A stretch of DNA of 64,000 nucleotides from Pontibacillus halophilus JSM 076056 = DSM 19796 (GTDB taxonomy: Bacteria > Bacillota > Bacilli > Bacillales > BH030062): the NCBI RefSeq assembly GCF_000425205.1, contig NZ_AULI01000013.1, forward strand, positions 1-64,000. Direction: 5' to 3'. The notes beneath the pieces were generated by a model, which was not told where the DNA came from, made no database searches, and saw only the letters and a program-made list of their open reading frames with translations. Positions 24,392 through 41,504 of this stretch are shown here, one piece after another (within the stretch, counting starts at the first letter, position 1; every line of letters begins with the position of its first letter). A program made the position numbers and the translations under genes.

Positions 24392-24478
24392 ATTCTAAAT
24401 GAAACCTCGACCCCTGTTCCAACGTATAGACGTGTACAATGGAGAAAGAACGAATCTAATGAGAAGGGGAAGGTGTCC

Positions 24479-27442: not shown

Positions 27443-28588
27443 TTACCAAATAAGGTCTACATATTCTGGGTGGTCAATAAATGGATTGCGGTTCCCTTGG
27501 TAGTCGGAGTGGATGATTTCATTACGGCGAATCTCAGTTTGGCTTACTGGGTCTTGCTCATGCCATTGGAGGAGCGTAGACAATTTGCCGAGCTGTGGTC
27601 CACTTGTACCTGTGTAGCTTGCTACTTCCAAATCAGGCTCCCCATTGCCGCCTTCATAACGGACAGCCATGTAGAATACCATACGGGCAACGTCTCCTTT
27701 TACTTCATCGCGTGGTTCAAATGAATCAGAGTCATAGGAGTTGCTTGGGGCCTCATCAAGTGGGCCACCCCCATTATCGAAATCTAGGTTGCCACGGGAT
27801 GAGTTGATGGAAACATCTGTTGGGCGTAAGTGGTGAATGTCCGTACCTGCACCCCGGGATGTACCGAAGTCTCCGTGTGATTTCGCCCAAACGTGTTCAC
27901 GGTTCCACTCATCTACGTAGCCTCCGTTCTCATATTTTGAGATGGAGTTTCCAGAATAGAGGAGCAGGACGTTATTTGCATTTGTAGGGTCTTCATCTGT
28001 GTTACGAAGTGCTCCCCATACATCGCTATAAGAAAGTTCTGTGTGATCATCAATTAAGTTGTGAAGTTCTTGTTTCAAGGCAGATCCAGATAATCCGTCT
28101 ACTGAGCTGTAGTAGCCGCTCCCTGTGGAAGTTCCATCAGAGGAATCGCCTTCATCGGAAGAATCTCCGCCATTTGAGTTAGACACTTTTTGGATAGAGG
28201 ATACATATTCCACTCCGTCTCGGCTGAAATAATCATCACGGGTACCGGTGACGACAATCTTCTCGCCGAAGAGGGATGGGTTGTTCATAAGGCCAAATTG
28301 GCTTCTGTACTCAGAGTCGAGTTTGACAAGGATCATTTCATTACTATTCGTTTCATTCGAATCGTCTGCTAAAGCGAGGGCATAGTTACTTGAGAAATTA
28401 CTTTGCTCTACATCGTTCACAGAGGTTGGGACACCAACGATGTACCCTTCTACGGTTACTTTCGTGCCGTTCCACTGGTTCATGGCTTCATTGACTGTCA
28501 TCGTTGAAGCTGCATGACTTGTTTGTCCGACCATAAGGAAGAATAAAGAACTTAGGACGAACAGGACGATTTTCCTTGTCGCTTTCAT
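27443..28588 (-). CDS. Secreted endonuclease I-family nuclease, 381 aa
   Basis: A Sec signal peptide (KIVLFVLSSLFFLMVGQTSHAAS, cleavage after SHA) is followed by an OB-fold-like domain (MNQWNGTKVTVEGYIVGVP) at about 30-130. A Ser/Gly/Asp-rich linker then leads to an endonuclease I domain with the catalytic motif EWNREHVWAKSHGDFG and DIHHLRPTDVSINSSRGN. B. subtilis has related extracellular nucleases (YurI/BsnA type), and the OB-fold plus endonuclease I layout occurs in several Bacillaceae. The start used is ATG at 28588 after AAGAGGAG; 18 upstream codons in frame are dropped. Likely role: scavenging nucleic acid outside the cell. Confidence 0.88.
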   Translation of the reverse strand: MKATRKIVLFVLSSLFFLMVGQTSHAASTMTVNEAMNQWNGTKVTVEGYIVGVPTSVNDVEQSNFSSNYALALADDSNETNSNEMILVKLDSEYRSQFGLMNNPSLFGEKIVVTGTRDDYFSRDGVEYVSSIQKVSNSNGGDSSDEGDSSDGTSTGSGYYSSVDGLSGSALKQELHNLIDDHTELSYSDVWGALRNTDEDPTNANNVLLLYSGNSISKYENGGYVDEWNREHVWAKSHGDFGTSRGAGTDIHHLRPTDVSINSSRGNLDFDNGGGPLDEAPSNSYDSDSFEPRDEVKGDVARMVFYMAVRYEGGNGEPDLEVASYTGTSGPQLGKLSTLLQWHEQDPVSQTEIRRNEIIHSDYQGNRNPFIDHPEYVDLIW

Positions 28589-28921
28589 GTAAAGAACACT
28601 CCTCTTAAAAGTTGTCGGGAACAGGTTAATGATTGTCCCCAATCCTTATCATCGGACAATTTAAAATTTTTTCATGAGATGTTTGTCTGATACTTGAAAA
28701 TAGTTCGAAATACATATAGAATCAAGTTATGTAATGAAAGTTAACACGGCATGAAAGCATTTGTTCAAAATACAACTTTAGACCCTAGAAAAGTGAGAAA
28801 AACTTGTGGAGAATGGAAGTATTCCTCGTTGTTTACAAGGATGCATAATAGGGAACGACATATGAAACTTATATTATCGAAGCCATTCGCTTCTAATCAA
28901 TGCTAAGGGGAGATTCTTAAG
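28589..28921. other. Divergent intergenic region, nuclease / glnA2
   Basis: Contains promoters in both directions. An inverted repeat ATTGTCC/GGACAAT (28632-28638, 28654-28660) lies upstream of the nuclease gene, and a TnrA/GlnR-like 17-mer is at 28730-28746. A -10 CATAAT near 28845 may serve the glutamine synthetase. Confidence 0.5.
28730..28746 (+). promoter_or_regulatory. TnrA/GlnR-like box
   Basis: TGTAATGAAAGTTAACA matches TGTNANAWWWTNTNACA except at two inner positions and keeps both TGT/ACA ends. It lies 176 bp upstream of a glutamine synthetase gene. Weak evidence. Confidence 0.3.
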
Positions 28922-30232
28922 ATGAGTTACACGAAGAAGGGTATCAAGCAACTTGTACAAGAAGAGAAAGTCGAATATATCCGCTTAGAGTTTACGGATA
29001 TGCTAGGAGATACGAAAAACGTTGAGTTACCAATCGAAGAATTAGATGCAGTACTAGAAAATGAAGCTATGTTCGATAGTTCTTCAATCTCTGGATTCTC
29101 AGACATCAACGAAAGTGACATGTACCTCTATCCAGACCTCGATACGTGCAAGGTGCTTCCTTCTGCAATGGAAGAAGATCGTATTGTTCGCTTTATCTGT
29201 GACATCTACACACCTGATGGCACACCTTTCGAAGGTGACCCACGCTATATCCTGAAGCGCGCTATGCAAGAGGCGAAAGAGATGGGATACGACGTAAACG
29301 TTGGACCAGAGCCTGAATTCTTCTTATTCAAGCGCTGCGAAGATGGTTATCCAATTCGCCACTTAAACGACCGTGGTGGATATTTCGATGCTTCTCCTAA
29401 AGATAAAGGTGATAAAGTACGTCGCGATATCGTTCGCACATTGAAGGAATTCGGTTTTGAAATGGAAGCTTCTCACCACGAGGTAGCGAAAGGTCAACAC
29501 GAAATTAACTTCCGTTTTGACGACATGTTAAAGACAGCAGATAACATTCAAGTGTTTAAGAATGTTGTTAAAGATGTAGCAACGAATCATGATTACCATG
29601 CGACGTTCATGCCTAAGCCAATTGCGGGTGAGAACGGTTCCGGAATGCACTGCCACCTTTCCCTATTCAAAGATGGTGATAGCGCGTTCCATGATGACGA
29701 TGCTCATGATGGCATCTCTGAAACAATGAAACACTTTATTGCTGGAATCCTTCACCACGCGAAGGCGATTACGGCAATTACGAATCCGAATGTGAACTCT
29801 TACAAGCGTCTCGTGCCAGGTTATGAAGCTCCTGTAAGCATCGCTTGGTCTCACTCCAACCGTAGCTGTATGATCCGTGTTCCAAATACACGCGGAAAAG
29901 GAACTCGCTTTGAGGTACGTAACCCAGACCCAACAGCGAACCCATACTTGGCAATTGCTGTTCTAATCCACGCTGGTCTTGATGGAATCAAGAACCAAAT
30001 GGATGCAGGCGAAGCGGAAACGCGTAACCTATATGAAGTAGAGGATGACAACGTTCCAACGTTGCCTACGAACCTGAAAGAAGCGTTGAAAGCTCTTCAA
30101 CAGGATGATGTGCTCATGAACGCACTAGGTGACCACACTTCTAAAGTATTTATTGAAGAGAAGGGTGAAGAGTGGACAGAATTCTCCTTACAAGTAAGCG
30201 AATGGGAAGTTGAAAGATATATGAGCAAATAA
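28922..30232 (+). CDS. Glutamine synthetase, type I, divergent paralogue, 436 aa
   Basis: Makes glutamine from glutamate, ammonia and ATP, or acts on a related amine. Family motifs are intact: GDPRYILKRAM, NVGPEPEFFLF, ASHHEVAKGQHEINF, NGSGMHCHLSLF and NSYKRLVPGYEAPV. It is not preceded by glnR, unlike the main Bacillus glnA. At the position of Arg62, which in B. subtilis mediates feedback and AMP inhibition, this protein has Asp61 (SISGFSDIN). The usual NRSP is NRSC, and FDGSSIEG is FDSSSISG. It is therefore probably a second synthetase with altered control or substrate; the true glnA should be elsewhere. The ribosome site is AAGGGGAG. Confidence 0.88.
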   Translation: MSYTKKGIKQLVQEEKVEYIRLEFTDMLGDTKNVELPIEELDAVLENEAMFDSSSISGFSDINESDMYLYPDLDTCKVLPSAMEEDRIVRFICDIYTPDGTPFEGDPRYILKRAMQEAKEMGYDVNVGPEPEFFLFKRCEDGYPIRHLNDRGGYFDASPKDKGDKVRRDIVRTLKEFGFEMEASHHEVAKGQHEINFRFDDMLKTADNIQVFKNVVKDVATNHDYHATFMPKPIAGENGSGMHCHLSLFKDGDSAFHDDDAHDGISETMKHFIAGILHHAKAITAITNPNVNSYKRLVPGYEAPVSIAWSHSNRSCMIRVPNTRGKGTRFEVRNPDPTANPYLAIAVLIHAGLDGIKNQMDAGEAETRNLYEVEDDNVPTLPTNLKEALKALQQDDVLMNALGDHTSKVFIEEKGEEWTEFSLQVSEWEVERYMSK

Positions 30233-30243
30233 GCTCGGTCTAT

Positions 30244-30284
30244 GAGAACGTTACCTTACATGAATGTAGGGTGACGTTTTCTTT
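30244..30284 (+). terminator. Terminator after the glutamine synthetase gene
   Basis: Imperfect stem, GAGAACGTTACC pairing with GGTGACGTTTTCT, followed by TTT. Confidence 0.75.
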
Positions 30285-30308: not shown

Positions 30309-30335
30309 TGAAACCTATAGGTAGGTAGTCCCGTA
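30309..30335 (+). promoter_or_regulatory. ECF-sigma (sigma-W-like) promoter of the ter operon
   Basis: TGAAAC at 30309-30314, 17 bp, CGTA at 30332-30335; the sigma-W consensus is TGAAAC-N16-CGTA. The B. subtilis yce operon is transcribed by several stress sigma factors including sigma-W. The predicted leader is about 120 nt. Confidence 0.6.
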
Positions 30336-30402
30336 GAAAGAATAAGAGAGTAAAAGAGTCCCTACATAAGGGTGATTATTTGACAAAATTGTCTAAAAAA
30401 TG

Positions 30403-30437
30403 TACGGTCAAACCGTAGGCATCACGCTTGCGTGATG
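30403..30437 (+). promoter_or_regulatory. Two adjacent hairpins in the ter operon leader
   Basis: Hairpin 1 is TACGGT/ACCGTA (30403-30417). Hairpin 2 is CATCACGC/GCGTGATG (30420-30437). They end 11 bp before the ribosome site of the first terD gene. Neither has a T run, so a role in RNA stability or translation is more likely than termination. Confidence 0.55.
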
Positions 30438-30462
30438 GTGTTAACTAAAAGGAGTGAAACGA

Positions 30463-31080
30463 TTGGCTATTACATTAGAAAAAGGTCAACGAGTGGATTT
30501 AACAAAGGGGAACCCAGGGCTATCGAAAGTGATGGTAGGTCTAGGATGGGACCCTGTGCAAACACAGAAAAATGGGAAAGGTGGCTTACTCGGCTCCCTG
30601 TTCGGTGGAGGTAGTAAAGGCCCTGAAATTGACTGTGATGCATCCGTCATTATGCTCCAAGATGATAAATTCGTAGATAAAAGTGACTTAGTCTACTTTG
30701 GTAAATTGAAAAGTGATAATGGAAGTGTTCAACATACAGGAGACAACTTGACGGGCGAGGGAGATGGAGATGACGAACAAGTCTTTGTCGATTTGAAAGA
30801 CGTCCCTCAGAAGTACAATAAACTCGTGTTTGTTGTAAATATTTATGATTGTAAACGTCGTAAGCAAGATTTCGGCATGATTGAGAACGCATTTATCCGT
30901 CTTCAGGATACGCAAAAGCGTGATGAAATGCTTCGTTATAATCTATCCGATGACTACTCTGGCCGCACAACATTGATTGCTGGTGAATTGTATCGTCAAG
31001 GGAACGAATGGAAGTTCGCAGCTGTAGGTGAAGGCACAACAGATGCCTCTCTAAGCGAAATTGTTCAACGTTACGTTTAA
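30463..31080 (+). CDS. yceC: TerD-family stress protein (YceC-like), 205 aa
   Basis: A calcium-binding TerD domain protein of the tellurite and stress-resistance system. It begins [21 protein letters not shown] from TTG 30463, which lies 6 bp after AAAGGAGTG. It has a Gly-rich insertion (GKGGLLGSLFGGGSKG) at about residues 30-50, in front of a modified acidic motif (EIDCDASVIML), and the second acidic cluster GEGDGDDEQ. It is the first gene of a ten-gene run in the same direction and is the most diverged of the three TerD copies. Confidence 0.9.
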   Translation: MAITLEKGQRVDLTKGNPGLSKVMVGLGWDPVQTQKNGKGGLLGSLFGGGSKGPEIDCDASVIMLQDDKFVDKSDLVYFGKLKSDNGSVQHTGDNLTGEGDGDDEQVFVDLKDVPQKYNKLVFVVNIYDCKRRKQDFGMIENAFIRLQDTQKRDEMLRYNLSDDYSGRTTLIAGELYRQGNEWKFAAVGEGTTDASLSEIVQRYV

Positions 31081-31232
31081 TAGTAACTAACCTAACCTTA
31101 AGAGCTAGTGTTGGTCTATAAACAATTTGATGCTTCTCGTTACTGGGTGGGGAAAGCGAATCTATCCCCTCCCAAATGGTTCAAAATTTGCCCCTCTAAA
31201 GGGACGGTATATTAATAAAGGAGAGATTACCC

Positions 31233-31814
31233 ATGGCAGTAAGCTTACAAAAAGGACAAAAAGTAGATTTAACAAAAGGTAACCCAGGACTTTCGAACAT
31301 TACAGTAGGACTTGGTTGGGATGTAAATAAATTTGATTCTGGTTCAGATTTCGACTTGGATGCGTCAATCTTCCTTCTAGGTTCAGACGACAAAGTACGT
31401 TCAGATAAAGACTTTATCTTCTATAACAACACAGTTGGCGGCGACGGTGCTGTTGAACACACGGGAGATAACCTAACTGGACAAGGTGATGGCGACGATG
31501 AACAGGTTAAGATTGATCTTAATTCCGTTCCTCAAGACGTACAAAAGATTTCTTTCACCATTACCATCCACGACGGGGAAGCACGCAACCAAAACTTCGG
31601 TCAAGTAAGCAACGCTTTCGTTCGTGTTGTAAACCCAAATAACGATGAAGAATTGATTCGTTATGACCTTGGAGAAGATTTCTCTATTGAAACGGCTGTT
31701 GTTGTAGGTGAGCTTTATCGTCACAACGGTGAGTGGAAGTTTAGCGCAGTAGGAAGCGGCTACCAAGGTGGACTAGCTTCTCTTGCAACAGACTTTGGAC
31801 TAACGGTTGCATAG
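31233..31814 (+). CDS. yceD: TerD-family stress protein (YceD-like), 193 aa
   Basis: A canonical TerD domain. Ca2+-binding acidic motifs are [11 protein letters not shown] near residue 45 and GQGDGDDEQ near residue 85, and [14 protein letters not shown] follows. The start is ATG 31233 after AAAGGAGAG. The C-terminal part is nearly identical to the next TerD protein, also at the DNA level. A terminator-like hairpin follows, so it may be made in excess over downstream proteins. Confidence 0.93.
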
Positions 31815-31841
31815 TATCAACGTATAAATACAGATGGTGTT

Positions 31842-31873
31842 GCACGTTGCTCCTTAATCAACGTGCTTTTTTT
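31842..31873 (+). terminator. Internal terminator or attenuator between terD copies 2 and 3
   Basis: Stem GCACGTTG/CAACGTGC with seven T, 30 bp before the next ribosome site. Since the following genes continue the same operon, partial read-through is likely. Confidence 0.75.
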
Positions 31874-31903
31874 CATAGTTACAGAGAAAGGTAGGAGAAT
31901 GAG

Positions 31904-32482
31904 ATGGCGATTACGTTATCGAAAGGACAACGAATTGATTTAACGAAAACAAACCCTGGTTTAACGAAGGCGGTTATTGGGCTTGGCTGGGACATTAATC
32001 ATTACGATGGAGGCAGTAGTTTCGACCTTGATGCGTCTGCATTTCTAGCTGATGAGAGTGGCAACGTTCAGAATGACCAGGAATTTGTCTTCTATAACAA
32101 TCTTCAAGACCCGTCTGGCGCAGTGGAGCATACTGGTGACAACCGTACAGGTGAAGGAGAAGGCGACGATGAGCAATTAACGGTCAACTTCTCTCAAGTT
32201 CCTAGCCATGTAGAGAAGGTTGCAATTACGGTTACCATCCATGATGCTGAAGGGCGTAACCAGAATTTCGGACAAGTAAGCAATGCCTTTGTACGTGTCC
32301 TAAATCCAGAGACGAACGAAGAGCTCATTCGCTACGATCTTGGAGAAGATTTCTCTATTGAAACAGCAGTTGTCGTTTGTGAGCTTTATCGTCATAATGG
32401 AGAATGGAAGTTTAGCGCAGTAGGAAGCGGCTTTAGTGGAGGTCTAGCTGCCTTATGCCGGAACTTCGGTTTAGAAGTTTAA
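31904..32482 (+). CDS. yceE: TerD-family stress protein (YceE-like), 192 aa
   Basis: The third TerD protein, with [11 protein letters not shown] and GEGEGDDEQ acidic motifs and [14 protein letters not shown]. Residues of about 145-180 match those of the previous copy almost exactly ([15 protein letters not shown], then [14 protein letters not shown]). It has extra Cys near the end (CELYRHN and ALCRNFGL). The start is ATG 31904 after GGTAGGAG. It is followed by terC after 14 bp. Confidence 0.93.
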
Positions 32483-32496
32483 TATAGGAGGCTATT

Positions 32497-33282
32497 ATGG
32501 AAATCTTACAAAACATCATAGATACCTACGCCCGCTTCTTTGACTGGGCTATGTGGGGAGAGGTTCTCTCTGATCCAAGAAGCTGGGCGCTTATAGGTAC
32601 GCTTGTTATCCTTGAGGGCTTGCTTTCAGCCGATAACGCACTCGTGTTAGCTGTTATGGTTAAGCACTTGCCTAAGGAACAGCAAAAGAAGGCGCTCTTC
32701 TACGGTCTACTGGGTGCGTATCTCTTCCGGTTCTTAGCCATTGGTGTCGGGACTTATCTTATCAAATTCTGGTGGGTCAAAGTATTCGGTGCCGGATACT
32801 TAGCTTGGCTCGCAGTTAAATTCTTCATAGATTACTTCGGTAAGAAGGATGAAGATGAAGAAGAAGCAGTAGGGATTAGCAATAAGAACCTGGCTGTACG
32901 TCTCTTTGGTACATTCTGGGGAACGATTGTCATGGTCGAACTTGTAGATATTGCATTCTCTGTCGACAGTATTCTAGCGGCGCTAGGGATTAGTGAACAA
33001 ATCTGGGTACTGATCCTAGGTGGTATGCTCGGCGTTCTAATGATGCGTGGAGTGGCAGGGGTCTTCTTGAAGCTTCTTGAGAAAGTTCCTGAATTAGAAG
33101 TTACCGCCCATGTCATCATCGCGTTTATCGCAGCGAAAATGGGACTGTCCATTGCACATGTTCATATTTCCCATACCGCATTCTTTATCTTTATTATTGG
33201 AGCATTCGTAGTGACATTTATTGTGCACTACATGCGGCGAGGCGGAAGGTCGAACGCAGAAACGGCCGCTTCGAAGGATTAA
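32497..33282 (+). CDS. yceF: TerC-family integral membrane protein, 261 aa
   Basis: Seven or so membrane helices. The TerC signatures are LLSADNALVLAVMVKHLP near residues 44-61 and DIAFSVDSILAALGIS near 150-165, with the charged residues thought to bind metal. TerC proteins work with TerD at the membrane, and Bacillus homologues have been linked to manganese export to surface enzymes. The start is ATG 32497 after GGAGG. It is followed by a hairpin and then the biosynthetic module. Confidence 0.93.
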   Translation: MEILQNIIDTYARFFDWAMWGEVLSDPRSWALIGTLVILEGLLSADNALVLAVMVKHLPKEQQKKALFYGLLGAYLFRFLAIGVGTYLIKFWWVKVFGAGYLAWLAVKFFIDYFGKKDEDEEEAVGISNKNLAVRLFGTFWGTIVMVELVDIAFSVDSILAALGISEQIWVLILGGMLGVLMMRGVAGVFLKLLEKVPELEVTAHVIIAFIAAKMGLSIAHVHISHTAFFIFIIGAFVVTFIVHYMRRGGRSNAETAASKD

Positions 33283-33286
33283 AAAT

Positions 33287-33308
33287 AGGGGGCTCGTCCT
33301 CCTTTTTT
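33287..33308 (+). terminator. Hairpin between terC and the biosynthetic module
   Basis: Short stem AGGGGG/CCTCCT (one G:U) with six T. As an operon-internal site it may reduce expression of the downstream enzymes. Confidence 0.6.
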
Positions 33309-33334
33309 AATCACATTACATTAGGAGGCCCACT

Positions 33335-34507
33335 ATGAGACATTTTGCTTCGCTATCTGAACTTCAACTCGAAGCACTCTTCTATCAACCACCCACAACA
33401 CTTACAAAATACTCCCCTAAGCAGGAAATTGCGTATGCATTAGGTGCAACGCTCTACATCCCTGCAACTAAAGACCGTCTCTATGAACGGTTAAATTCTT
33501 CCCCTATTCAGGATGCGTCCTCTGTCGTGTTAGATTTAGAAGACGCGATTGGGGATGACGAGGTGAAAGATGCAGAAGACCAACTTCTCCATGAAGTGTG
33601 GTCGATTTATCGTTCTACTCACTCAATGGAGCATCTTCCATTTCTCTTTATCCGTGTACGGTCTCATAAGCAGCTTAAACGCATTGCACAGTCGCTCGGA
33701 GTCGCGTTGACGACGATTACTGGTTTTGTATTTCCGAAGTTTACGACTTCAAATGGAGAGATGTACCTAGAGGGATTGCAGGAGATTCAGGCTACCTATA
33801 ACACGCCTTTATATGCCATGCCGATCATCGAAACACCGGAGTTGATTTACAAAGAAAGTCGGATTGAACAAATGACGGCACTTAAGGAGTTACTGGATCG
33901 ATACCAATCATCTATTTTAAACATTCGTATTGGAGCTACTGATTTGTGTGGGCTATATGGCATTCGTAGAACCACAAACTCTACCATTTATGATATTGGA
34001 CTCATGAAAGATTTCATCTCAGATTTAACAAACTTCTTTGGTAGAAAAGGGGATGCATACACGATTTCAGGACCGGTCTGGGAATTCTTCCAAAGCAATC
34101 GTGTATTGAAGCCTCAAATACGTCAGACTCCATTCCGTCAATCATATGGAGAGACTGGCCTCCATTTGCGCAAGGACATCATCAATGAATATTTAGATGG
34201 TCTTATTCAAGAGGTTCTGTTGGACAAGTTGAACGGGCTAACAGGGAAGACCATTATTCACCCAACACATATCGTTCCTGTCAATGCCCTTCAGGTGGTA
34301 TCAAAGGAAGAATACCTCGATGCGTGTAACATATTGGAGAACAGAGGACGAAACGGCGTCACGAAAAGTCCTTCAGCAAATAAGATGAATGAAATGAAAC
34401 CTCACCAATACTGGGCTGAGGAGATTATTAAAAAATCAAAAGCTTATGGGGTGTTTCAAGATGGACATACATACGTCAGTCTACTCAAAGAACCAGCTTC
34501 CGTATAA
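33335..34507 (+). CDS. HpcH/citrate-lyase-like C-C bond lyase of the Ter biosynthetic module, 390 aa
   Basis: A TIM-barrel lyase related to HpcH/HpaI aldolase and the citrate lyase beta chain. Motifs are SSVVLDLEDAIGDDEV near residues 60-76 (Mg site), FLFIRVRSHKQ and LNIRIGATDLCGLYGIR near 190-206. Related proteins are predicted members of Ter-linked biosynthetic modules (Pfam C-C_Bond_Lyase as I recall). The start is ATG 33335 after TTAGGAGG. Its end overlaps the start of the next gene, so the pair is translationally coupled. Confidence 0.82.
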   Translation: MRHFASLSELQLEALFYQPPTTLTKYSPKQEIAYALGATLYIPATKDRLYERLNSSPIQDASSVVLDLEDAIGDDEVKDAEDQLLHEVWSIYRSTHSMEHLPFLFIRVRSHKQLKRIAQSLGVALTTITGFVFPKFTTSNGEMYLEGLQEIQATYNTPLYAMPIIETPELIYKESRIEQMTALKELLDRYQSSILNIRIGATDLCGLYGIRRTTNSTIYDIGLMKDFISDLTNFFGRKGDAYTISGPVWEFFQSNRVLKPQIRQTPFRQSYGETGLHLRKDIINEYLDGLIQEVLLDKLNGLTGKTIIHPTHIVPVNALQVVSKEEYLDACNILENRGRNGVTKSPSANKMNEMKPHQYWAEEIIKKSKAYGVFQDGHTYVSLLKEPASV

Positions 34508-35825
34508 TGTGCTAGACGACTTGCAAGTAGGGGTATCAGTTGAGCACAACCCTTACGACCTATCAATGGATCAGCTCTTTCAAATGGCAGCCCGCCAAAA
34601 TAAGAAGCGTGCCTATCTTTTTGTGAGTCCTGTACTCGGAAAGCATATACCAGTATCTCCCTATCGTTCGTTGTTAACAGGGGCGTTGCTTGCTGCTAGA
34701 TTAACAGAAGTGGTTTATGATGAACCATTTCCACACCGAGATGAACTGATTAGAGCCTTTCAACAAGAGCATGAGGAACAAGTCATCTATAAACAAGTAC
34801 AGGAAAGTCGTTTTTCTCTACCTGAACGGTCATTATTCATAGGGTTCGCTGAGACTGCCACAGCTCTAGGTCAGTCGGTTTTTGAACATTTCACGAATGC
34901 TCGATATGTGCATACGACAAGAGAGGACCTGGTGGGTATTGCCCCTACATTAAATTTCCAAGAGGAGCATTCTCATGCGACCGACCAGCGTTGTTATGGG
35001 GAAGAAGAATTTACACATGATGGGCCAGTTGTCCTTGTAGATGATGAAATTACGACGGGCAAGACGGCGTTAAATATCATTCGAACCATGCAGGAAACAT
35101 ATCCACGGAGCACATATGTCGTCTTATCCATTCTAGATTGGCGTTCTGAAGAGCATCAACAGCGGTTCCGTAGCGTGGAGGAAGAGCAAGGTATCACCAT
35201 ACATGAAGTTTCGTTGCTTAAGGGGACGATGGAATCACAGGGAGAAGTGCTACTGTCGAATGAACCCGCATCAGAGAGCATTGATGGAGAAACTTCAGTT
35301 CAAGAGATTACAGCACAGCCGTTCAAAGCCTTTCATTCAGATCGGTATGTGCTATCAACCAATGGGGTGGGTGAAGTAAGCGAGCGCCCTTATCTCTCCA
35401 ATACAGGACGATTTGGACTATCAGAATCGGACCAGCTTGCTCTAGAAGAGGCCGCTGCATCATTTGGACTTTATTTAAGAAATGTACGTAAAGGTAGCAA
35501 GACGTTGTGTCTTGGAACTGGTGAATTTATGTATATTCCGATGAAGCTTGCTTCGTATATGGGGGAAGGGGTTCAGTATCAATCGACAACGAGAAGCCCC
35601 ATTCACTTAGCTGATAAGAAGGGATATGCGGTTCAAGCGAAATTGACCTATAAAAGCCCAGAAGATAGAAGTGTCCAACACTTTCTATACAACATGCACC
35701 CCAATCAATATGACGAGGTATTCGTTTTCTTAGAGCGGTCAAGAAGCGAGGAAGAGATGAAGTCTTTCCTCGAAGCCTTAACCTCTACAGGTGTTGAAAC
35801 GATTCACTTGGTAACCTTTAGCTAG
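34461..35825 (+). CDS. Phosphoribosyltransferase with TRSP domain, 454 aa
   Basis: The N-terminal PRTase domain has the PRPP-binding loop VVLVDDEITTGKTALN near residue 190. The C-terminal TRSP domain carries SERPYLSNTGRFGLSESDQ and CLGTGEFMYIPMKLASY. PRTase_2 plus TRSP is the usual order in predicted Ter biosynthetic modules making a nucleoside-like compound. ATG 34461 is preceded by GGGGTG; ATG 34446 is the alternative. It overlaps the lyase gene by 47 bp. No biochemical proof of function is known to me. Confidence 0.82.
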   Translation: MDIHTSVYSKNQLPYNVLDDLQVGVSVEHNPYDLSMDQLFQMAARQNKKRAYLFVSPVLGKHIPVSPYRSLLTGALLAARLTEVVYDEPFPHRDELIRAFQQEHEEQVIYKQVQESRFSLPERSLFIGFAETATALGQSVFEHFTNARYVHTTREDLVGIAPTLNFQEEHSHATDQRCYGEEEFTHDGPVVLVDDEITTGKTALNIIRTMQETYPRSTYVVLSILDWRSEEHQQRFRSVEEEQGITIHEVSLLKGTMESQGEVLLSNEPASESIDGETSVQEITAQPFKAFHSDRYVLSTNGVGEVSERPYLSNTGRFGLSESDQLALEEAAASFGLYLRNVRKGSKTLCLGTGEFMYIPMKLASYMGEGVQYQSTTRSPIHLADKKGYAVQAKLTYKSPEDRSVQHFLYNMHPNQYDEVFVFLERSRSEEEMKSFLEALTSTGVETIHLVTFS

Positions 35826-35839
35826 AAAGGAAGAGCTAC

Positions 35840-36940
35840 ATGATGAACCAGAATGAAATAAAGCGTATGGGGAGTTATCCAGATGAGGACGTCACCTTTC
35901 TATTAAAGAATTTAAATGGGTTAATGAAAGAAGATGACTTAGCCTATCGCGAAAGAGCAATTCAGTCAGGCGTTCATTATTCAGAAATGCTCCCCATTGA
36001 GTATGAGCCCTCAGCTGATTATATGAAACTATTCTATGAATCTTTACAAGATTACAAGCAAGAGGTAGCTATTGCTGTAGGGGCGGTTGCCGAACAACTT
36101 CTCGAGAAGTGGGGAGGTGCATTTACCATTGTATCGCTAGCACGAGCAGGGACGCCGATTGGAATCTTGGTGAAACGGTACTTACGTGATGTACATCATA
36201 TCGATGTTCCTCATTATAGTGTCTCTATTATTCGTGATCGTGGTCTTGATGAACAGGCCATTCATCATATTTTAGAGCGTGAAGGGAATAATTCGATTCA
36301 ATTTGTAGATGGTTGGACTGGAAAAGGCGCAATTACAAAGGAATTAGAGCGGTCTTGTCGTAGATTTAAAGAGGAACAAGGGATTGAACTCGATGATTCG
36401 TTGGCGGTCCTAGCCGACCCAGGCCATTGTTCAGACCTGTTTGGTACGCGGGAAGATTACCTAATTCCTAGTGCATGCTTAAACGCAACGGTATCAGGTC
36501 TTGTCAGTCGAACGGTGTTAAATGAACAGTATATAGCAGAAGACGAATTTCACGGGGCTAAATACTATGAGCACCTAGAAGCTGAGGACGTGTCAAACGA
36601 ATTTGTAGACACCATTACAGAGCAGTTCTCATCTGTTGGAGACGCTGTAAAGTACCGGCTTCAAGAAGTTCGACAACAATCCCGTGCGGACTGGGCTGGT
36701 TGGAATGAAATCGAAGAAATACAAAAGCAGTTTAACATTGAAGATGTAAATCATATTAAGCCTGGTGTAGGTGAGACGACACGTGTGCTGTTAAGACGAG
36801 TACCGTGGAAGATTCTTGTGAAGGACAAGCAGAGTCCTTACTTACATCACGTATTCCAGCTGGCAGAGGAAAAGGGAGTTCCGATTGAAGAGTATAGAGG
36901 GATGTCTTATTCATGCTGTGGATTAATCAAGAAAGTGTGA
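35840..36940 (+). CDS. StiP/PRTase_1 protein with PELOTA-like C-terminus, 366 aa
   Basis: Often annotated as a StiP-family cysteine protease, but the visible motif SIQFVDGWTGKGAITKEL near residues 154-171 is a PRPP-loop type, and family analysis places it with phosphoribosyltransferases. The last 65 residues (from KPGVGETTRVLLRRVPWKIL to CCGLIKKV) resemble an L7Ae/PELOTA RNA-binding-like domain. The ribosome site is AAAGGAAG. It sits 14 bp after the PRTase-TRSP gene and 4 bp before the HAD gene. The protease name should be treated with caution. Confidence 0.8.
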   Translation: MMNQNEIKRMGSYPDEDVTFLLKNLNGLMKEDDLAYRERAIQSGVHYSEMLPIEYEPSADYMKLFYESLQDYKQEVAIAVGAVAEQLLEKWGGAFTIVSLARAGTPIGILVKRYLRDVHHIDVPHYSVSIIRDRGLDEQAIHHILEREGNNSIQFVDGWTGKGAITKELERSCRRFKEEQGIELDDSLAVLADPGHCSDLFGTREDYLIPSACLNATVSGLVSRTVLNEQYIAEDEFHGAKYYEHLEAEDVSNEFVDTITEQFSSVGDAVKYRLQEVRQQSRADWAGWNEIEEIQKQFNIEDVNHIKPGVGETTRVLLRRVPWKILVKDKQSPYLHHVFQLAEEKGVPIEEYRGMSYSCCGLIKKV

Positions 36941-36944
36941 GGCG

Positions 36945-37964
36945 ATGACGTTGATTTTTGCAAGTGACTTAGACCAAACGCTACTATTCTCAGAGCGCAC
37001 GATGAAAGCGCCAAAAGCAAATGTGTATGTAAGTCCGGTTGAATGGATTGATGGCAAAGAGCAATCTTATATGACCTCGACTTCTTCCAACTTACTAAAG
37101 CGAATTCGTGAGGTGGCAACCTTTATTCCTGTCACGACAAGAACGGTTGAACAGTATAAGCGAATTTCCTATATACAAGAGCTCGCTCCTACCTATGCCA
37201 TTACATCAAATGGGGGGACAATCTTAGTGAATGGGGAACCAGACCGTGAGTGGTCGACTAAGATTGAAACGGAAATCCTTGAACAGTGTGCTCCAGCAGA
37301 AAGAATCCTATCAGCGATAGCTTCTGTTGGCAATGGAGACTGGTTGTTACGGCAAAGGCAAGCAGATGGGTTATTCTATTACTTTATCGTTGATGAAGAT
37401 AAGCTTCCTTATAAGGAACTAGATGCGATTGTGGCTTATGCTTTCGAAGAAGGGTGGACTTTAACACCTCAAGGAAAGAAGATGTACTTAATCCCAAACC
37501 CAGTTCGGAAGGAAAGAGCACTTGCTCACGTCTTGGCACAACTAGAGGATTCCTTTCTCGTTACCTCAGGGGATTCTTATCTAGACAAGAATATGCTTAA
37601 AATGGCTGACCAAGCTTACATCCCGAGTCAAAGTCAACTGGCAACTCAGCGAGGAGATGTGCGCGGAGTCATCGTGACCGATGAGCCAGGCATTTTCTCA
37701 AGTGAACAATTGTTGTTAGATGTGCTCTTAATGGCGCAAACAAACTTAGATGCCCCGTCCATTCTAAGTTCGAAGGCTGCTTGTATCCAATGGGGAATTG
37801 ATCCTTCTACGTTAAGAAAGAGGCGAGAAGACTTTCCGAAAGGGACCATCCGTAAATTTGGGTCTTCGTACGCCGTAACGGCCAAGGGGATGTATACGGT
37901 CTTTGGTGAGCCGCTTATAAGAGACTCATATGAGATAATGAAAGAAGGGGGGAACTCGAAATGA
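36945..37964 (+). CDS. HAD-superfamily hydrolase with C-terminal helix-turn-helix-like domain, 339 aa
   Basis: A Cof-like HAD phosphatase. Motif I is FASDLDQTLLFS with the nucleophile Asp in DLDQT, TTRTVEQY follows in the motif II region, and the motif IV-like TSGDSYLDKNML is near residue 210. After residue 260 there is an extra segment (about 273-322: KAACIQWGIDPSTLRKRRED, then RKFGSSYAVTAKGM and YTVFGE). It has the pattern of small helix-turn-helix domains of the HTH_59 type. HAD enzymes in Ter modules usually end near 270 residues. The gene overlaps yceG by 4 bp. The phosphatase call is firm; the DNA-binding call is inference. Confidence 0.8.
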   Translation: MTLIFASDLDQTLLFSERTMKAPKANVYVSPVEWIDGKEQSYMTSTSSNLLKRIREVATFIPVTTRTVEQYKRISYIQELAPTYAITSNGGTILVNGEPDREWSTKIETEILEQCAPAERILSAIASVGNGDWLLRQRQADGLFYYFIVDEDKLPYKELDAIVAYAFEEGWTLTPQGKKMYLIPNPVRKERALAHVLAQLEDSFLVTSGDSYLDKNMLKMADQAYIPSQSQLATQRGDVRGVIVTDEPGIFSSEQLLLDVLLMAQTNLDAPSILSSKAACIQWGIDPSTLRKRREDFPKGTIRKFGSSYAVTAKGMYTVFGEPLIRDSYEIMKEGGNSK

Positions 37965-39601
37965 ATCCTTCCATTAAACAGATTGCAGCTGTTCCGCTTG
38001 AGGATGTACGAGAACGTGAATGGAAAGAGCTCCTACAGAAGCCGTACACGGACCGACATGAAGAACAAGTAAGGGAAGATACGCTTTATATTGGTCAACT
38101 CATCATTTCAATCCTTGGTGTGTATGAGGATGAAGATGAGTATATGAATGAGTTGTACGACTTAGCGAATGATGAGGACCTGAAGCTAGAAGTCCTAAGT
38201 GAGACGTTAGATAAGCAAATTGAGAATAAGGCTTTTCAAGATTTGCAAGAAATCTGGCGTATTAACCAGCAAGAGCAGCTCTCTGTAAATCGACTTGTGG
38301 CTTTCTTGGACGGCAAGCAGTTACTTCCGAAACTATCAGATTCACTTATGAATCGGCATATTCGAATTCAGTTGATTGAAGTATTAAAGCAGTTTCAACG
38401 TGTTCATGAGAAAGGGTTGCAAGATGGGGACTTCCGTCGTGTGTTGTTCGACCTTGTGAAGTTCTCGCTCAATCATTTAGAGCCTTGGCTTGAGAGCAAC
38501 AGTGAAGAAGGATTGTTTCCGCGTGTGCTATGGTATGGGGAAGCGACGAAGAGCCAGAGCTATTTTCTATACTTCTTATATCTAATTGGTGCTGACCTCA
38601 TCTTCTATCATCCGAACAAGGAAGACATATTTAGTCACGTTAATCTGGAAGTGGACTATTCACTCGTTGAAACATTGCCACAGCAACAAGAACCTACGTC
38701 TTTCCCGACAGAGCGGAAGAAGCGAAGTGCTACCGTCGCCTATAAAGCGTCACAAGAAATGGACCGAGTACTCCATCACGATAATTCCATGCTCTACAAG
38801 CCTTGGCAATTTCGGCAATATGCCCCCATGTCCATTACGATGAAGACCACGTATGATGAAATTTTTATATTGGGCAAGGAGAAAGCTTTCGTACGTCCTC
38901 AGTTCTATGTAGAAGATGGTGTTGTTCATATTCCATCTCTCTTTGCTAAAGTAGTAGGGGTGTCTAATAATCGGGATGAATACTGGTCGCGCATGCAGCA
39001 AATGGCCGATTATAACCCGTCTCATGTGGTCAATGAATTTCCGTTCTCAGAAGAAGTGAAAGGGAACTATCGATTTCATTACACCCACTCTCTTAACACT
39101 GATGGCACGCTCCAAGCGGAGAAAATGATGTCTGGGAACTTCTGGCGTTATAAACAACTACCTAATGGACTACAGACGGGGATTGCGAAGGCCATTGAAC
39201 GAATGTGCTCCAATCCACAGCTGTATCCATTGCCAGGTGAGAGTGAGGAAGACGTAAAAATTTATTTATTTCAACAGGCTACGCAGCTGCCAACTGAATT
39301 CTTGCAGCTACTTCAGAAATTTGATTACGCTCAGGAAGTTCCGAAACTCGTGCTTTATAATAACGAATTGAACGGCGAAATGTCCCGAGCGGATGCTGCG
39401 CGGTTGTTGCTCATGAATGAAGTCGGAGTCGACTTGCTCTTATATAACCCGTCAGGTCACAACGACTTAGAGAGTTATCTGAATGAAGAGCGATTCGATA
39501 CCCATATGCTAGAGGAAATGTGCTTTGGACTTGATTATAAAGAAAGTTACGGATTGAAAGACCGATTGCGTTCGAAAATTAAACGATTTTTAGGAGAGTG
39601 A
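37961..39601 (+). CDS. yceG: YceG-family protein of the Ter/yce stress operon, 546 aa
   Basis: A large soluble protein of the YceG_bac family, listed as a putative component of the Ter biosynthetic module; biochemical role unknown. It begins MNPSIKQIAAVPLEDVRERE from ATG 37961 (ribosome site AAGGGGGG). There are no membrane segments. Blocks such as WYGEATKSQSYFLYFLYLIG and LIFYHPNKEDIF suggest a Rossmann-like fold with metal or nucleotide binding, but I cannot assign residues. It overlaps the HAD gene by 4 bp and is followed by telA after 4 bp, as yceG-yceH in B. subtilis. Confidence 0.85.
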   Translation: MNPSIKQIAAVPLEDVREREWKELLQKPYTDRHEEQVREDTLYIGQLIISILGVYEDEDEYMNELYDLANDEDLKLEVLSETLDKQIENKAFQDLQEIWRINQQEQLSVNRLVAFLDGKQLLPKLSDSLMNRHIRIQLIEVLKQFQRVHEKGLQDGDFRRVLFDLVKFSLNHLEPWLESNSEEGLFPRVLWYGEATKSQSYFLYFLYLIGADLIFYHPNKEDIFSHVNLEVDYSLVETLPQQQEPTSFPTERKKRSATVAYKASQEMDRVLHHDNSMLYKPWQFRQYAPMSITMKTTYDEIFILGKEKAFVRPQFYVEDGVVHIPSLFAKVVGVSNNRDEYWSRMQQMADYNPSHVVNEFPFSEEVKGNYRFHYTHSLNTDGTLQAEKMMSGNFWRYKQLPNGLQTGIAKAIERMCSNPQLYPLPGESEEDVKIYLFQQATQLPTEFLQLLQKFDYAQEVPKLVLYNNELNGEMSRADAARLLLMNEVGVDLLLYNPSGHNDLESYLNEERFDTHMLEEMCFGLDYKESYGLKDRLRSKIKRFLGE

Positions 39602-39605
39602 GTTC

Positions 39606-40685
39606 ATGTCTCAACAAACAACTGATGTTCAGCCAATTGAAGATCAACTGTCAGAAGACAAAGCGAATGAGTTAAAGCAGGAATTGAGAAAGGATCCAGA
39701 AGTACAGCGAATTAAAGACACGATTGATGAGCGTCAACAAACGGAATTGCTCTCATTTGGTCAAGAGCCTGCTAATGAAATCTCACAGTTCTCTGACAAA
39801 ATTTTAGGAACGATGAAGAATTCTAGCATGGAAGACTCCAGCAAGTTGTTGAAACAACTTAGCAAAGTAATGGAGAAGTTCGATAAGAAAGACTTTGAAG
39901 AAAACAAAGGGCTATTCAATAAAGTATTTGGTCGTGGTAAGAAGATGATTGAGAAAATCTTCGATAAGTACCAATCACTTGGTGGCGAAATTGAAAAAAT
40001 TAACGTCGAAATCTCTAAATATAGAGATGAGATGGTGGATAACACCCATAATCTAGAAGACATGTACGAACGGAACTATCAATTTTATTTAGACCTAGAG
40101 AAATACATTACTGCAGGACAACTGAAGCAAGAAGAACTTCAGCAACAAATTCAACAGCTTGAAGGGAAGGCTGGAGAAGGTAATCAGCGGGCTTCTATGG
40201 AACTCGAAACACTGAAAAATGGTGCTGAACTATTAGACCAACGAGTGTATGACTTACAGATGGCACAAATGGTCGCCTTCCAACAGGCTCCGCAAATTCG
40301 TCTTCTGCAGCGCGGGAACACGAAACTCGTGAATAAGATTAACTCTGCCTTTGTTACAACGATTCCAATCTTTAAGACGAGCGTGATTCAAGCTGTCGCA
40401 GCGAAAAGGCAAAAGCTTGTGGCTGATAGCATGAGTGAGCTAGACCGAAGAACGAATGAGATGTTGAAGCGAAACGCGCAAAATGTATCAGACCAGAGTC
40501 GTCAGATTGCAGAATTGGCTGGCGGACCATCTATTAAAATCGAAACGATTGAAGAATCCTTTAACACGATTGTTCAAGGGATGCAGGATACGAAGGCTAT
40601 TGAGGACGAGAATACGCGAATTCGAGAAGAAGGACGTAAACGCGTATTAGAGCTTCAGGAAAACTTTAAAAAGAAACACGGGTAA
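39606..40685 (+). CDS. yceH: TelA-family toxic anion resistance protein, 359 aa
   Basis: A mainly alpha-helical, coiled-coil protein of the TelA family, linked to tellurite, antimicrobial and nisin tolerance. Typical stretches are MVDNTHNLEDMYERNYQFYL, LQMAQMVAFQQAPQIRLLQ and LVNKINSAFVTTIPIFKTSV. Length is normal. The start is ATG 39606 after GGAGAG. It is the last gene of the ter operon and is followed by a strong terminator. Confidence 0.93.
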   Translation: MSQQTTDVQPIEDQLSEDKANELKQELRKDPEVQRIKDTIDERQQTELLSFGQEPANEISQFSDKILGTMKNSSMEDSSKLLKQLSKVMEKFDKKDFEENKGLFNKVFGRGKKMIEKIFDKYQSLGGEIEKINVEISKYRDEMVDNTHNLEDMYERNYQFYLDLEKYITAGQLKQEELQQQIQQLEGKAGEGNQRASMELETLKNGAELLDQRVYDLQMAQMVAFQQAPQIRLLQRGNTKLVNKINSAFVTTIPIFKTSVIQAVAAKRQKLVADSMSELDRRTNEMLKRNAQNVSDQSRQIAELAGGPSIKIETIEESFNTIVQGMQDTKAIEDENTRIREEGRKRVLELQENFKKKHG

Positions 40686-40707: not shown

Positions 40708-40738
40708 ATCGCGACATGAATAGTGTCGCGATTTTTTT
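40708..40738 (+). terminator. Terminator of the ter operon
   Basis: Stem ATCGCGACA/TGTCGCGAT with a 7-nt loop and seven T. Confidence 0.92.
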
Positions 40739-40781: not shown

Positions 40782-41504
40782 ATGACAGAGAAGCCTCGAA
40801 AAGGTTGGGTGATGAAGCAGCAGTGGAATCATTTGTTGTTTCTTCACTACCCCATTCATCCAGAACACTTACAACCCTTTCTACCAGAATCGTTAACAGT
40901 AGACACATTTGAAGGACAGGCTTGGATTGGGATTGTTCCCTTTGAGATGAGTCAGATTCGTTTCAAGGGGCTACCTGTAGTCCCGTTTGTCTCTTCTCTT
41001 TATGAACTGAATGTTAGAACGTACGTAACGTACAAAGGAGAGCGTGGGGTATACTTTTTCAGTTTGGATGCGAACCACGTTCTAGGGGTGCAAATTGCCA
41101 GGTCAATATTTCACTTACCGTATTTCCGGGCGAAGATGAGAATGGAGAGGATGGGTGAGAAATGGGAGTTCTCGAGTAGGAGGACACATGAGGGGAAGGG
41201 TAACCCTGCTTTTCACCTTTCTTATAGTGGTGGAGAGAAGTTACACATTGATGGGAGAAGAACATTAGTAAATTGGTTAACAGAGCGATATTGCTTATTT
41301 AATGTTCACAACGGATTTGTGTATAAGGGAAAGATAGATCATAATAAGTGGGAGCTTCGAGAGGGACACTATGAAATTGAGAAGAATGAGCTGTTGCAAC
41401 CGTTCCAATACACATTTACAGAAGCGCCGATTGCTCACTATTCTGAGGTTCTAGAGTCATATATTTATCCATTTGAGAAAGAAGCGGTCCAAGCAGGGGA
41501 ATAG
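40782..41504 (+). CDS. DUF2071 family protein (YqjF-like), 240 aa
   Basis: Family start WVMKQQWNHLLFLHYPIHPEHLQPFLPE and the conserved VPFEMSQIRFKGLPVVPFVSS, ELNVRTYVTYKGERGVYFFS. The fold is related to acetoacetate decarboxylase; biochemical role unknown. The ribosome site is AAAGGAG before ATG 40782. It stands as a single-gene unit between two operons, with a stem-loop over its stop codon. Confidence 0.85.
   Translation: MTEKPRKGWVMKQQWNHLLFLHYPIHPEHLQPFLPESLTVDTFEGQAWIGIVPFEMSQIRFKGLPVVPFVSSLYELNVRTYVTYKGERGVYFFSLDANHVLGVQIARSIFHLPYFRAKMRMERMGEKWEFSSRRTHEGKGNPAFHLSYSGGEKLHIDGRRTLVNWLTERYCLFNVHNGFVYKGKIDHNKWELREGHYEIEKNELLQPFQYTFTEAPIAHYSEVLESYIYPFEKEAVQAGE

Follow-up and report, generated by a model that had tools for sequence, protein, structure and literature searches.

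How is a Ter stress operon that carries its own block of biosynthetic enzymes controlled, and what might that block make? The question is raised by a locus of Pontibacillus halophilus JSM 076056 = DSM 19796, which we analysed within a stretch of 64,000 nucleotides (positions 1 to 64,000 of contig NZ_AULI01000013.1, contig C11 of the 36 in a 3.67-Mb genome; hereafter the window). Ten codirectional genes on the + strand, at 30454-40685, encode in order three TerD proteins, TerC, a C-C bond lyase, a phosphoribosyltransferase (PRTase) joined to a TRSP domain, a StiP-PELOTA protein, a HAD protein, YceG and TelA. An earlier note on this DNA had named these genes in this order; all of the open reading frames (ORFs) are present, and Pfam agrees on each name, every match relied on exceeding the curated cut-off. 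TerD, TerC and TelA stand in one codirectional cluster, as expected of a Ter operon, and the CitE-type lyase, PRTase_2-TRSP, StiP-PELOTA and HAD occur together, as expected of a Ter biosynthetic module. Anantharaman, Iyer and Aravind reportedly predicted Ter stress systems with such a module in 2012. We take the four-enzyme block to be that module, and to our knowledge its product has so far only been predicted. On balance, we favour reading the locus as a Ter stress operon that is started by an extracytoplasmic function (ECF) sigma factor, tuned by its own HTH_59 protein, and equipped with an enzyme pathway using phosphoribosyl pyrophosphate (PRPP).

The HAD gene (36945-37964, +) encodes a HAD domain (PF05116, S6PP-type; about residues 1-265) and, joined to it, an HTH_59 domain (PF20038; about residues 266-325). 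Residues 272-322 match HTH_59 with 33.6 bits (cut-off 27), the C-terminal piece alone scores 36.1 bits, and this is the single HTH_59 match in the genome. Between the promoter-like sites of the leader and the first TerD start lies a palindrome, TCACGCTTGCGTGA (30422-30435, strand not assigned), which we propose to be the operator of HTH_59. A genome scan for the strict palindrome, allowing at most one mismatch and covering part of the possible spacers, found TCACGCNNGCGTGA exactly in one place, TCACGCTTGCGTGA at 30422-30435, and with a mismatch in one more; the relaxed form TCACG-N4-CGTGA, scanned in the window, gave 1 copy against 0.02 expected. The earlier note had missed the fused HTH_59, the likely operator and the nature of the locus's left edge at 30309. 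The operon of Pontibacillus salipaludis (L073) has the ten genes in the same order, the HAD-HTH fusion, an ECF-type site and the palindrome, but differs in its StiP, which is 61-62% identical, and in the palindrome spacer, which is CAAG rather than the CTTG of the window.

We used the distribution of the palindrome across relatives to examine the link between regulator and site. Among 115 loci, the strict form TCACGC-N0-6-GCGTGA is confined to the window and P. salipaludis. In nine genomes of the family the strict site occurs once in each of the four with HAD-HTH, and the other five are without the HAD gene and YceG too, so that the site merely tracks the presence of the operon and this comparison is not independent. 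The link is testable only via the relaxed palindrome and genomes with a stand-alone HTH_59. HAD or HTH_59 is matched by 68 of 397 genomes of the order (the roughly 45 with HAD and without HTH_59 were sampled by L212, L213 and earlier loci only), and two rounds, of 17 and 6, gave 23 HTH_59 operons in 8 genus codes and 7 family codes. TCACG-N4-CGTGA stands exactly in the leader of the first TerD gene in 22 of the 23, compared with 0 of 102 TerD loci that lack HTH_59. Because of this co-occurrence, we consider it highly probable that HTH_59 acts at the palindrome as the operon's own regulator. The first round, which left out L168 (taken to be the same genome as L073) and 11 loci without a usable TerD, gave 16/17 against 0/102 (Fisher p 6e-19 before allowing for kinship), and the second gave 6/6; the 23rd operon, L205, carries TCACGCTGGAGTGA, with one mismatch.

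The site behaves as a specific signal in other respects. All 16 copies of TCACG-N4-CGTGA found in 2.6 Mb lie in HTH_59 leaders, where about 2.5 copies would be expected by chance for 10 fixed bases. When leaders were searched openly for palindromes with 5-bp arms and gaps of 0-8, TCACG/N4 came out on top (16/17 vs 0/102), the next non-overlapping palindrome reaching 3/17. The arms are held constant amid nine different spacers in the first round, and flanks differ across genera. The site lies 21-54 bases before the called TerD start in 18 of 22 operons, 10 bases before it in L206 and 95 in L204; in L042 and L170 the called (longest-ORF) TerD start falls upstream of the palindrome. We propose an HTH_59 gene together with a TCACG-N4-CGTGA leader site as the mark of such operons, and the window has both. 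In the open-access literature searched, a phage paper naming HTH_59 aside, this pair is not described, and as far as these searches go the fusion of enzyme and regulator together with its operator is new. HTH_59 may have other uses besides Ter operons, as neither the palindrome nor a Ter gene was found in 19 kb around an HTH_59-like gene at L220 (G233).

Fusion of HTH_59 to HAD is found in five genomes, namely that of the window, G200, G203 (L073), G205 and G251 (L201), with family codes f1 and f52. Elsewhere HTH_59 is a separate small gene after HAD or, in operons that lack the module, a gene between TerD/TerC and YceG, and its pairing with the palindrome extends to these module-less operons. 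On a quick tree of YceG and TelA (60 rows, L168 left out) the HTH_59 label changes at least five times, and all four independent pairs agree. The fused rows form one clade (5 rows; 100 in the Shimodaira-Hasegawa-like approximate likelihood-ratio test), and so the fusion looks like one event.

Upstream of the palindrome, TGAAAC-N17-CGTA at 30309-30335 (+) is an ECF-sigma-type promoter-like site, and its first base is the left edge at 30309. At the level of sequence, a consensus promoter thus stands where a member of an ECF regulon would have it. Counting the window, 41 of 110 arrays have TGAAAC-N15-18-CGT[ACT] in the 300 bases ahead of their first gene, compared with 3 of 110 on the reverse strand; the 41 sites have 34 distinct spacers, and 5 of the 115 loci, with less than 300 bases of leader, are not counted. 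A second exact match of this type lies elsewhere in the window, at 24400-24426. A possible second, sigma-A-like promoter, TTGACA-N17-TACGGT (30380-30408, +), has a weak -10 element and falls below the scan threshold; it is kept in the three same-family leaders examined.

Control of this kind invites comparison with B. subtilis yceCDEFGH, which shares TerD, TerC, YceG and TelA with the window; the B. subtilis equivalents of TerC and TelA are presumably YceF/MeeF and YceH. Alongside the ECF-type site of the window, the available part of PMC3498285 gives yceC-yceH a secondary sigma-W control and also lists sigma-B and sigma-M. The earlier note's statement that B. subtilis has only the yceCDEFGH part agrees, as far as StiP goes, with searches of 14 control genomes, in which TerD and YceG_bac match B. 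subtilis, StiP is found only in Deinobacterium chartae, and B. subtilis lacks both StiP and HTH_59.

The four enzymes belong together, because they are contiguous in most relatives and two of them may be fused. We assembled 115 StiP-centred loci (L039-L152 and the window) with 112 distinct StiP sequences; the identical pairs L045/L111, L051/L114 and L095/L096 mean that counts are not independent. The order lyase, PRTase_2-TRSP, StiP, HAD is unbroken and on one strand in 103 of them, and PRTase_2-TRSP and StiP share one fused ORF in 12 of the 115, in line with the earlier claim that the enzymes act together. The 12 exceptions to the order include contig ends (L093, L137, L138), split genes (L113), an inserted ATP-grasp gene (L143), another order or gene set (L040, L140, L151, L152) and a lone StiP (L070); at L112 and L133 no lyase or PRTase ORF was found at the locus. 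L070 is a divergent second StiP of G192 that lacks both the module and the DGWTGKG loop described below. In the actinobacterial loci L140, L146, L147 and L148 (Cellulomonas, Nocardia and a Pseudonocardiales metagenome-assembled genome) PRTase_2-TRSP is fused to StiP and the HAD ORFs are mostly oversized. The earlier note had also argued from gene overlaps, and both are present, between lyase and PRTase (34446 or 34461/34507) and between HAD and YceG (37961/37964). In relatives, by longest-ORF starts that somewhat inflate the counts, lyase and PRTase overlap in 98/105 and StiP and HAD in 92/109, where the window has a 4-base gap instead; HAD and YceG do so in only 3/43, so that this second overlap does not hold as a rule.

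The block is a widespread and already predicted kind. StiP is present in 30 of 200 genomes drawn from the class, and at least 592 relatives occur in a named genome collection; the 80 best were retained. Matches were also found in 2567 plasmid records, in 2 viral contigs and in 3 phage records, ME3 accounting for two of the latter. On plasmid pPag2 of Pantoea vagans (L040), StiP, PRTase, lyase and ATP-grasp lie beside terZABCDEF-like genes; this locus differs in its two divergent gene sets, its order, its ATP-grasp gene and a StiP at 37%, and has no YceG or TelA within 25 kb.

Compared with Ter biosynthetic systems in general, the window shares TerD, TerC, TelA, a CitE-like lyase, PRTase-TRSP, StiP-PELOTA and HAD, and differs in having YceG and TelA after HAD, the HAD-HTH_59 fusion, a leader with palindrome and ECF-type site, and no detectable Ter-type ATP-grasp (PF15632, named by Pfam 'ATP-grasp in the biosynthetic pathway with Ter operon'). 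The earlier note had remarked on the missing partner, and it is indeed absent from the operon. PF15632 exceeds its cut-off in 12 of the 14 control genomes and in the P. halophilus genome only in frames of 1081 and 1117 amino acids, by their length presumably carbamoyl-phosphate synthase; the Ter ATP-grasp of L077 as query reached one of these same two frames (E 0.004 over 72 residues). In the 103 complete loci the gene after HAD is YceG in 45, ATP-grasp in 28, TerD in 5 and TerA in 3, with neither YceG nor ATP-grasp nearby in 21 and a contig end in 1. Since ATP-grasp directly follows HAD in only those 28, and YceG in 45, its absence is an ordinary variant, and ATP-grasp does not define the Ter module. 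The idea that YceG replaces ATP-grasp after HAD was not upheld, as 7 YceG loci have both, with the ATP-grasp gene upstream, and YceG also occurs in module-less operons.

What the enzymes might do was judged from motifs, profiles and a structural model. The lyase (33335-34507, +; PF15617, E 9e-116), a TIM barrel of CitE/HpcH-HpaI type, found no relative in the PDB as a single sequence, while a search with its profile recovers structures of citrate lyase beta-type and of malyl-CoA lyase (best E 1e-7). Its E69, D70 and E166 are invariant in 32 sequences, a better measure than a DLED pattern, which was too strict (55/109). PRTase_2-TRSP (34446-35825, +; PF15609, PF12500; an in-frame ATG also lies at 34461) matches solved PRTases weakly as a profile (E 0.24), and the DDE of its PRPP loop is invariant in 43/43 sequences; here too the alignment measures better than an over-strict pattern for the full loop (84/112). 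StiP-PELOTA (35840-36940, +; PF11202, PF15608) combines a predicted PRTase fold with an L7Ae-like domain. Its AlphaFold2 model has a mean predicted local distance difference test score of 93, and in Foldseek PRTases and PyrR, a regulator with the PRTase fold, make up all 15 matches with E <0.001 (one judged by an inhibitor title), the whole-model TM score being about 0.25, as only the core aligns. The motif F-[VIL]-DGWTGKG, resembling a PRPP loop, is present in 114 of 115 loci. A profile comparison of StiP with PRTase_2 gave no match (hhalign 2.9%), and so the two are not close kin. By fold or motif, both proteins can be called PRTases, and phosphoribosyl transfer by the two seems probable to us. 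For HAD, the closest proteins of solved structure carry the annotation trehalose phosphatase (E 6.5e-7), and the motifs DxDxT (111/111 loci) and GDSxxD-type (110/111) are kept.

From gene content, the fusion, the ECF-type site, the co-occurrence of HTH_59 with the palindrome, and the PRTase motif and fold, we infer the following scheme. An ECF sigma factor would initiate expression of a cell-envelope or chemical-stress operon, and the HTH_59 protein encoded within the operon would tune it. In the simplest case this protein would be a repressor or roadblock that binds TCACG-N4-CGTGA at 30422-30435; judging solely by the position of the site, we lean towards repression rather than activation. 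The regulator would mostly be the small stand-alone HTH_59 and, in the clade of the window, the C-terminal part of the HAD phosphatase. The CitE-type lyase may make or trim a small carbon precursor, the two PRTase proteins would transfer a phosphoribosyl group from PRPP, and HAD would remove phosphate. At the membrane, TerD, TerC, YceG and TelA could then sense or use the ribosylated compound, or its phosphorylated precursor. Since a DNA-binding domain is part of the phosphatase, flux through the pathway could directly set expression of the operon. Pathway enzymes with a DNA-binding domain are known as trigger enzymes, for example PutA and BirA; we claim no homology with these, and the coupling would be of a similar kind. 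Control of HTH_59 DNA binding by a HAD ligand is put forward tentatively. Equally tentative is the fuller version, in which HAD-HTH_59 is both a metabolite-sensing trigger enzyme and the operon's repressor, and the build-up of an intermediate frees the promoter.

A number of observations weigh against this scheme. The 23 HTH_59 operons belong to few genus codes, and kinship inflates the Fisher p; a sign test on four pairs cannot go below p 0.125, and the tree was quickly made and has flagged long branches. In four operons of genus code g4 (L041, L042, L206, L207) an ATP-grasp gene precedes the site, which would not cover the whole array. HAD is without HTH in most loci, and HTH_59 also occurs without HAD, so that phosphatase and regulator are not generally one molecule. 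As for the promoter, 69 of the 110 arrays have no strict ECF site, and in the P. halophilus genome TGAAAC-N16-17-CGTA has 50 matches vs 18 for the reversed pattern; a lone match is thus weak evidence, and it is conservation that counts. The StiP loop has one acidic residue only (D157-G158), and catalysis is not assured. Finally, together with its neighbour the palindrome can be folded as an RNA hairpin of -15.5 kcal/mol.

The strongest competing explanation, to which we give somewhat less than an even chance, is that the product of the module is a free, N-linked, nucleoside-like signal; the fusion to HTH would then be incidental and HTH_59 a local repressor without metabolic input. Of the 23 operons, 18 encode HTH_59 separately, and in 10 of them the stretch read shows no module gene, as might be expected of such a repressor. 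An excerpt of PMC7824862 treats the pairing of PRTase and HAD as a predicted signal-synthesis module, and the nucleoside-like metabolite is repeated, still as a prediction, in the accessible part of PMC8115787. However, the fusion has been kept in five genomes of one clade with two family codes, and the free or N-linked state of the product is an assumption. The earlier note had also proposed a nucleoside-like product; its grouping of the enzymes and its PRTase calls hold, but this product is not the sole fit, as StiP resembles the O-ribosylating CriT.

That resemblance supports a second alternative, which rivals the nucleoside explanation because PRPP-dependent ribofuranosyl transferases are among StiP's best structural matches, and which we nonetheless think unlikely. 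Here StiP would take ribose-5-phosphate from PRPP and attach it to a hydroxyl group on a large acceptor, either RNA held by PELOTA or an envelope polymer. HAD would then remove the 5-phosphate, much as CriT and CrpP work together in Bcs3, the capsule polymerase of H. influenzae type b. According to an excerpt of PMC10299916, CriT is a PRTase-fold enzyme that transfers O-linked Ribf-5P from PRPP, and the HAD-like phosphatase CrpP dephosphorylates it. By Z score the best VIA-align match of the StiP model is Bcs3 (8a0c, Z 11.6 over 202 residues, chain 639-947, inside CriT), with PyrR (2igb, over 147 residues) and a ribofuranosyl transferase (7shg, over 210) both at Z 10.1; the window also has the HAD partner. 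The PELOTA part matches YbxF of a riboswitch complex (Z 8.8 over 69 residues), and its E312, T314 and R315 are invariant in a 40-row alignment. However, Z differences of about 1.5 are near the limit of a tie, leaving CriT close to PyrR, and a common fold does not show function. Foldseek ranks ordinary purine PRTases and PyrR first by E-value, StiP's likeness to Bcs3, a capsule polymerase, is structural only, and the HAD sequence finds trehalose phosphatase, with no match to Bcs3. The lyase would also be left unexplained.

It is improbable, in our view, that the leader palindrome is an RNA element (a 5' hairpin acting in stability or anti-termination) instead of a DNA operator. The hairpin would have a CUUG loop, and the fold mentioned above, of the leader at 30396-30440, has z -2.8; the palindrome nevertheless tracks the gene of a DNA-binding domain, and what is kept is its two 5-base arms, while spacer and flanks vary. 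Least of all do we expect StiP to be a cysteine protease and the block a stress proteolysis module, a very improbable idea prompted by Pfam and NCBI names and by a C197 invariant in an 11-row alignment. We set it aside in view of the fold and motif: C197 is not invariant, or even close to it, in 40 rows, the DGWTGKG loop is conserved, and the 15 Foldseek matches include no protease, which is not in itself a disproof of a protease fold.

A weak terminator- or attenuator-like hairpin followed by a T run (33287-33303, +; -8.8 kcal/mol, z -2.1) lies between TerC and the lyase, so that the ten genes need not be transcribed evenly as one unit. Some relatives, too, may keep the module apart from the Ter genes: of 91 in which the lyase comes right after a Ter gene, 23 have in the gap a hairpin with a T run and 7 or more Watson-Crick pairs, a count that excludes G-T pairs and therefore the hairpin of the window. 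No Rfam match besides rRNA and tRNA was found in the window, and a riboswitch upstream of TerC was rejected. An intrinsic terminator (40708-40732, +; -15 kcal/mol, z -4.05) follows TelA.

Of the Ter proteins, TerD 1 (30463-31080, +; PF02342, E 4e-71) has its longest ORF from GTG 30454 and probably starts at TTG 30463, which is preferred because this codon is aligned with L073 and preceded by AGGAG. TerD 2 (31233-31814, E 1.5e-86) and TerD 3 (31904-32482, E 3e-84), both + and PF02342, follow. A fourth TerD-domain gene, perhaps TerA-like, encodes 411 amino acids at L004:778-2013 on contig C1, apart from the operon. In another organism, C. difficile, TerD is the subject of work with metronidazole (PMC6262375). 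TerC (32497-33282, +) is of YkoY/MeeY type (PF03741, E 5e-52; TIGR03716 above cut-off), and its relatives MeeF and MeeY are described in the available portion of PMC10550928 as metalating exported Mn enzymes in B. subtilis. YceG_bac (37961-39601, +; PF14266, E 1.6e-98) has a model with a repeated secondary-structure pattern and a predicted TM score of 0.51; its best Foldseek matches are ATP-binding cassette ATPases, at a TM score of about 0.2, and we do not take this as an assignment. TelA occupies 39606-40685 (+; PF05816, E 4.6e-98).

The upstream neighbour of the operon is glnA, for glutamine synthetase (28922-30232), followed by a terminator-like hairpin (30244-30281). The ORF before glnA (27443-28642) is on the minus strand, and no glnR adjoins glnA. 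A DUF2071 gene (40782-41504) comes directly after the TelA terminator, and positions 1-2017 of the window hold the end of a 23S gene, a 5S gene and a run of 15 tRNA genes.

If the proposed scheme is true, then HTH_59 and TCACG-N4-CGTGA would form a regulator-operator pair dedicated to Ter operons of the Bacillales type, and the palindrome would predict which operons are controlled by a stand-alone HTH_59, those without a module included. Reading StiP as a PRTase that carries an RNA-binding-like domain, and no longer as a cysteine protease, matters because the protease name dominates the plasmid records listed (19 of 20 rows, of the 2567 that match). The fusion and the operator make the question of the Ter metabolite testable: a small molecule that changes binding of HAD-HTH to the site would be a candidate pathway intermediate, and the ligand of HAD-HTH_59 would name the Ter metabolite.

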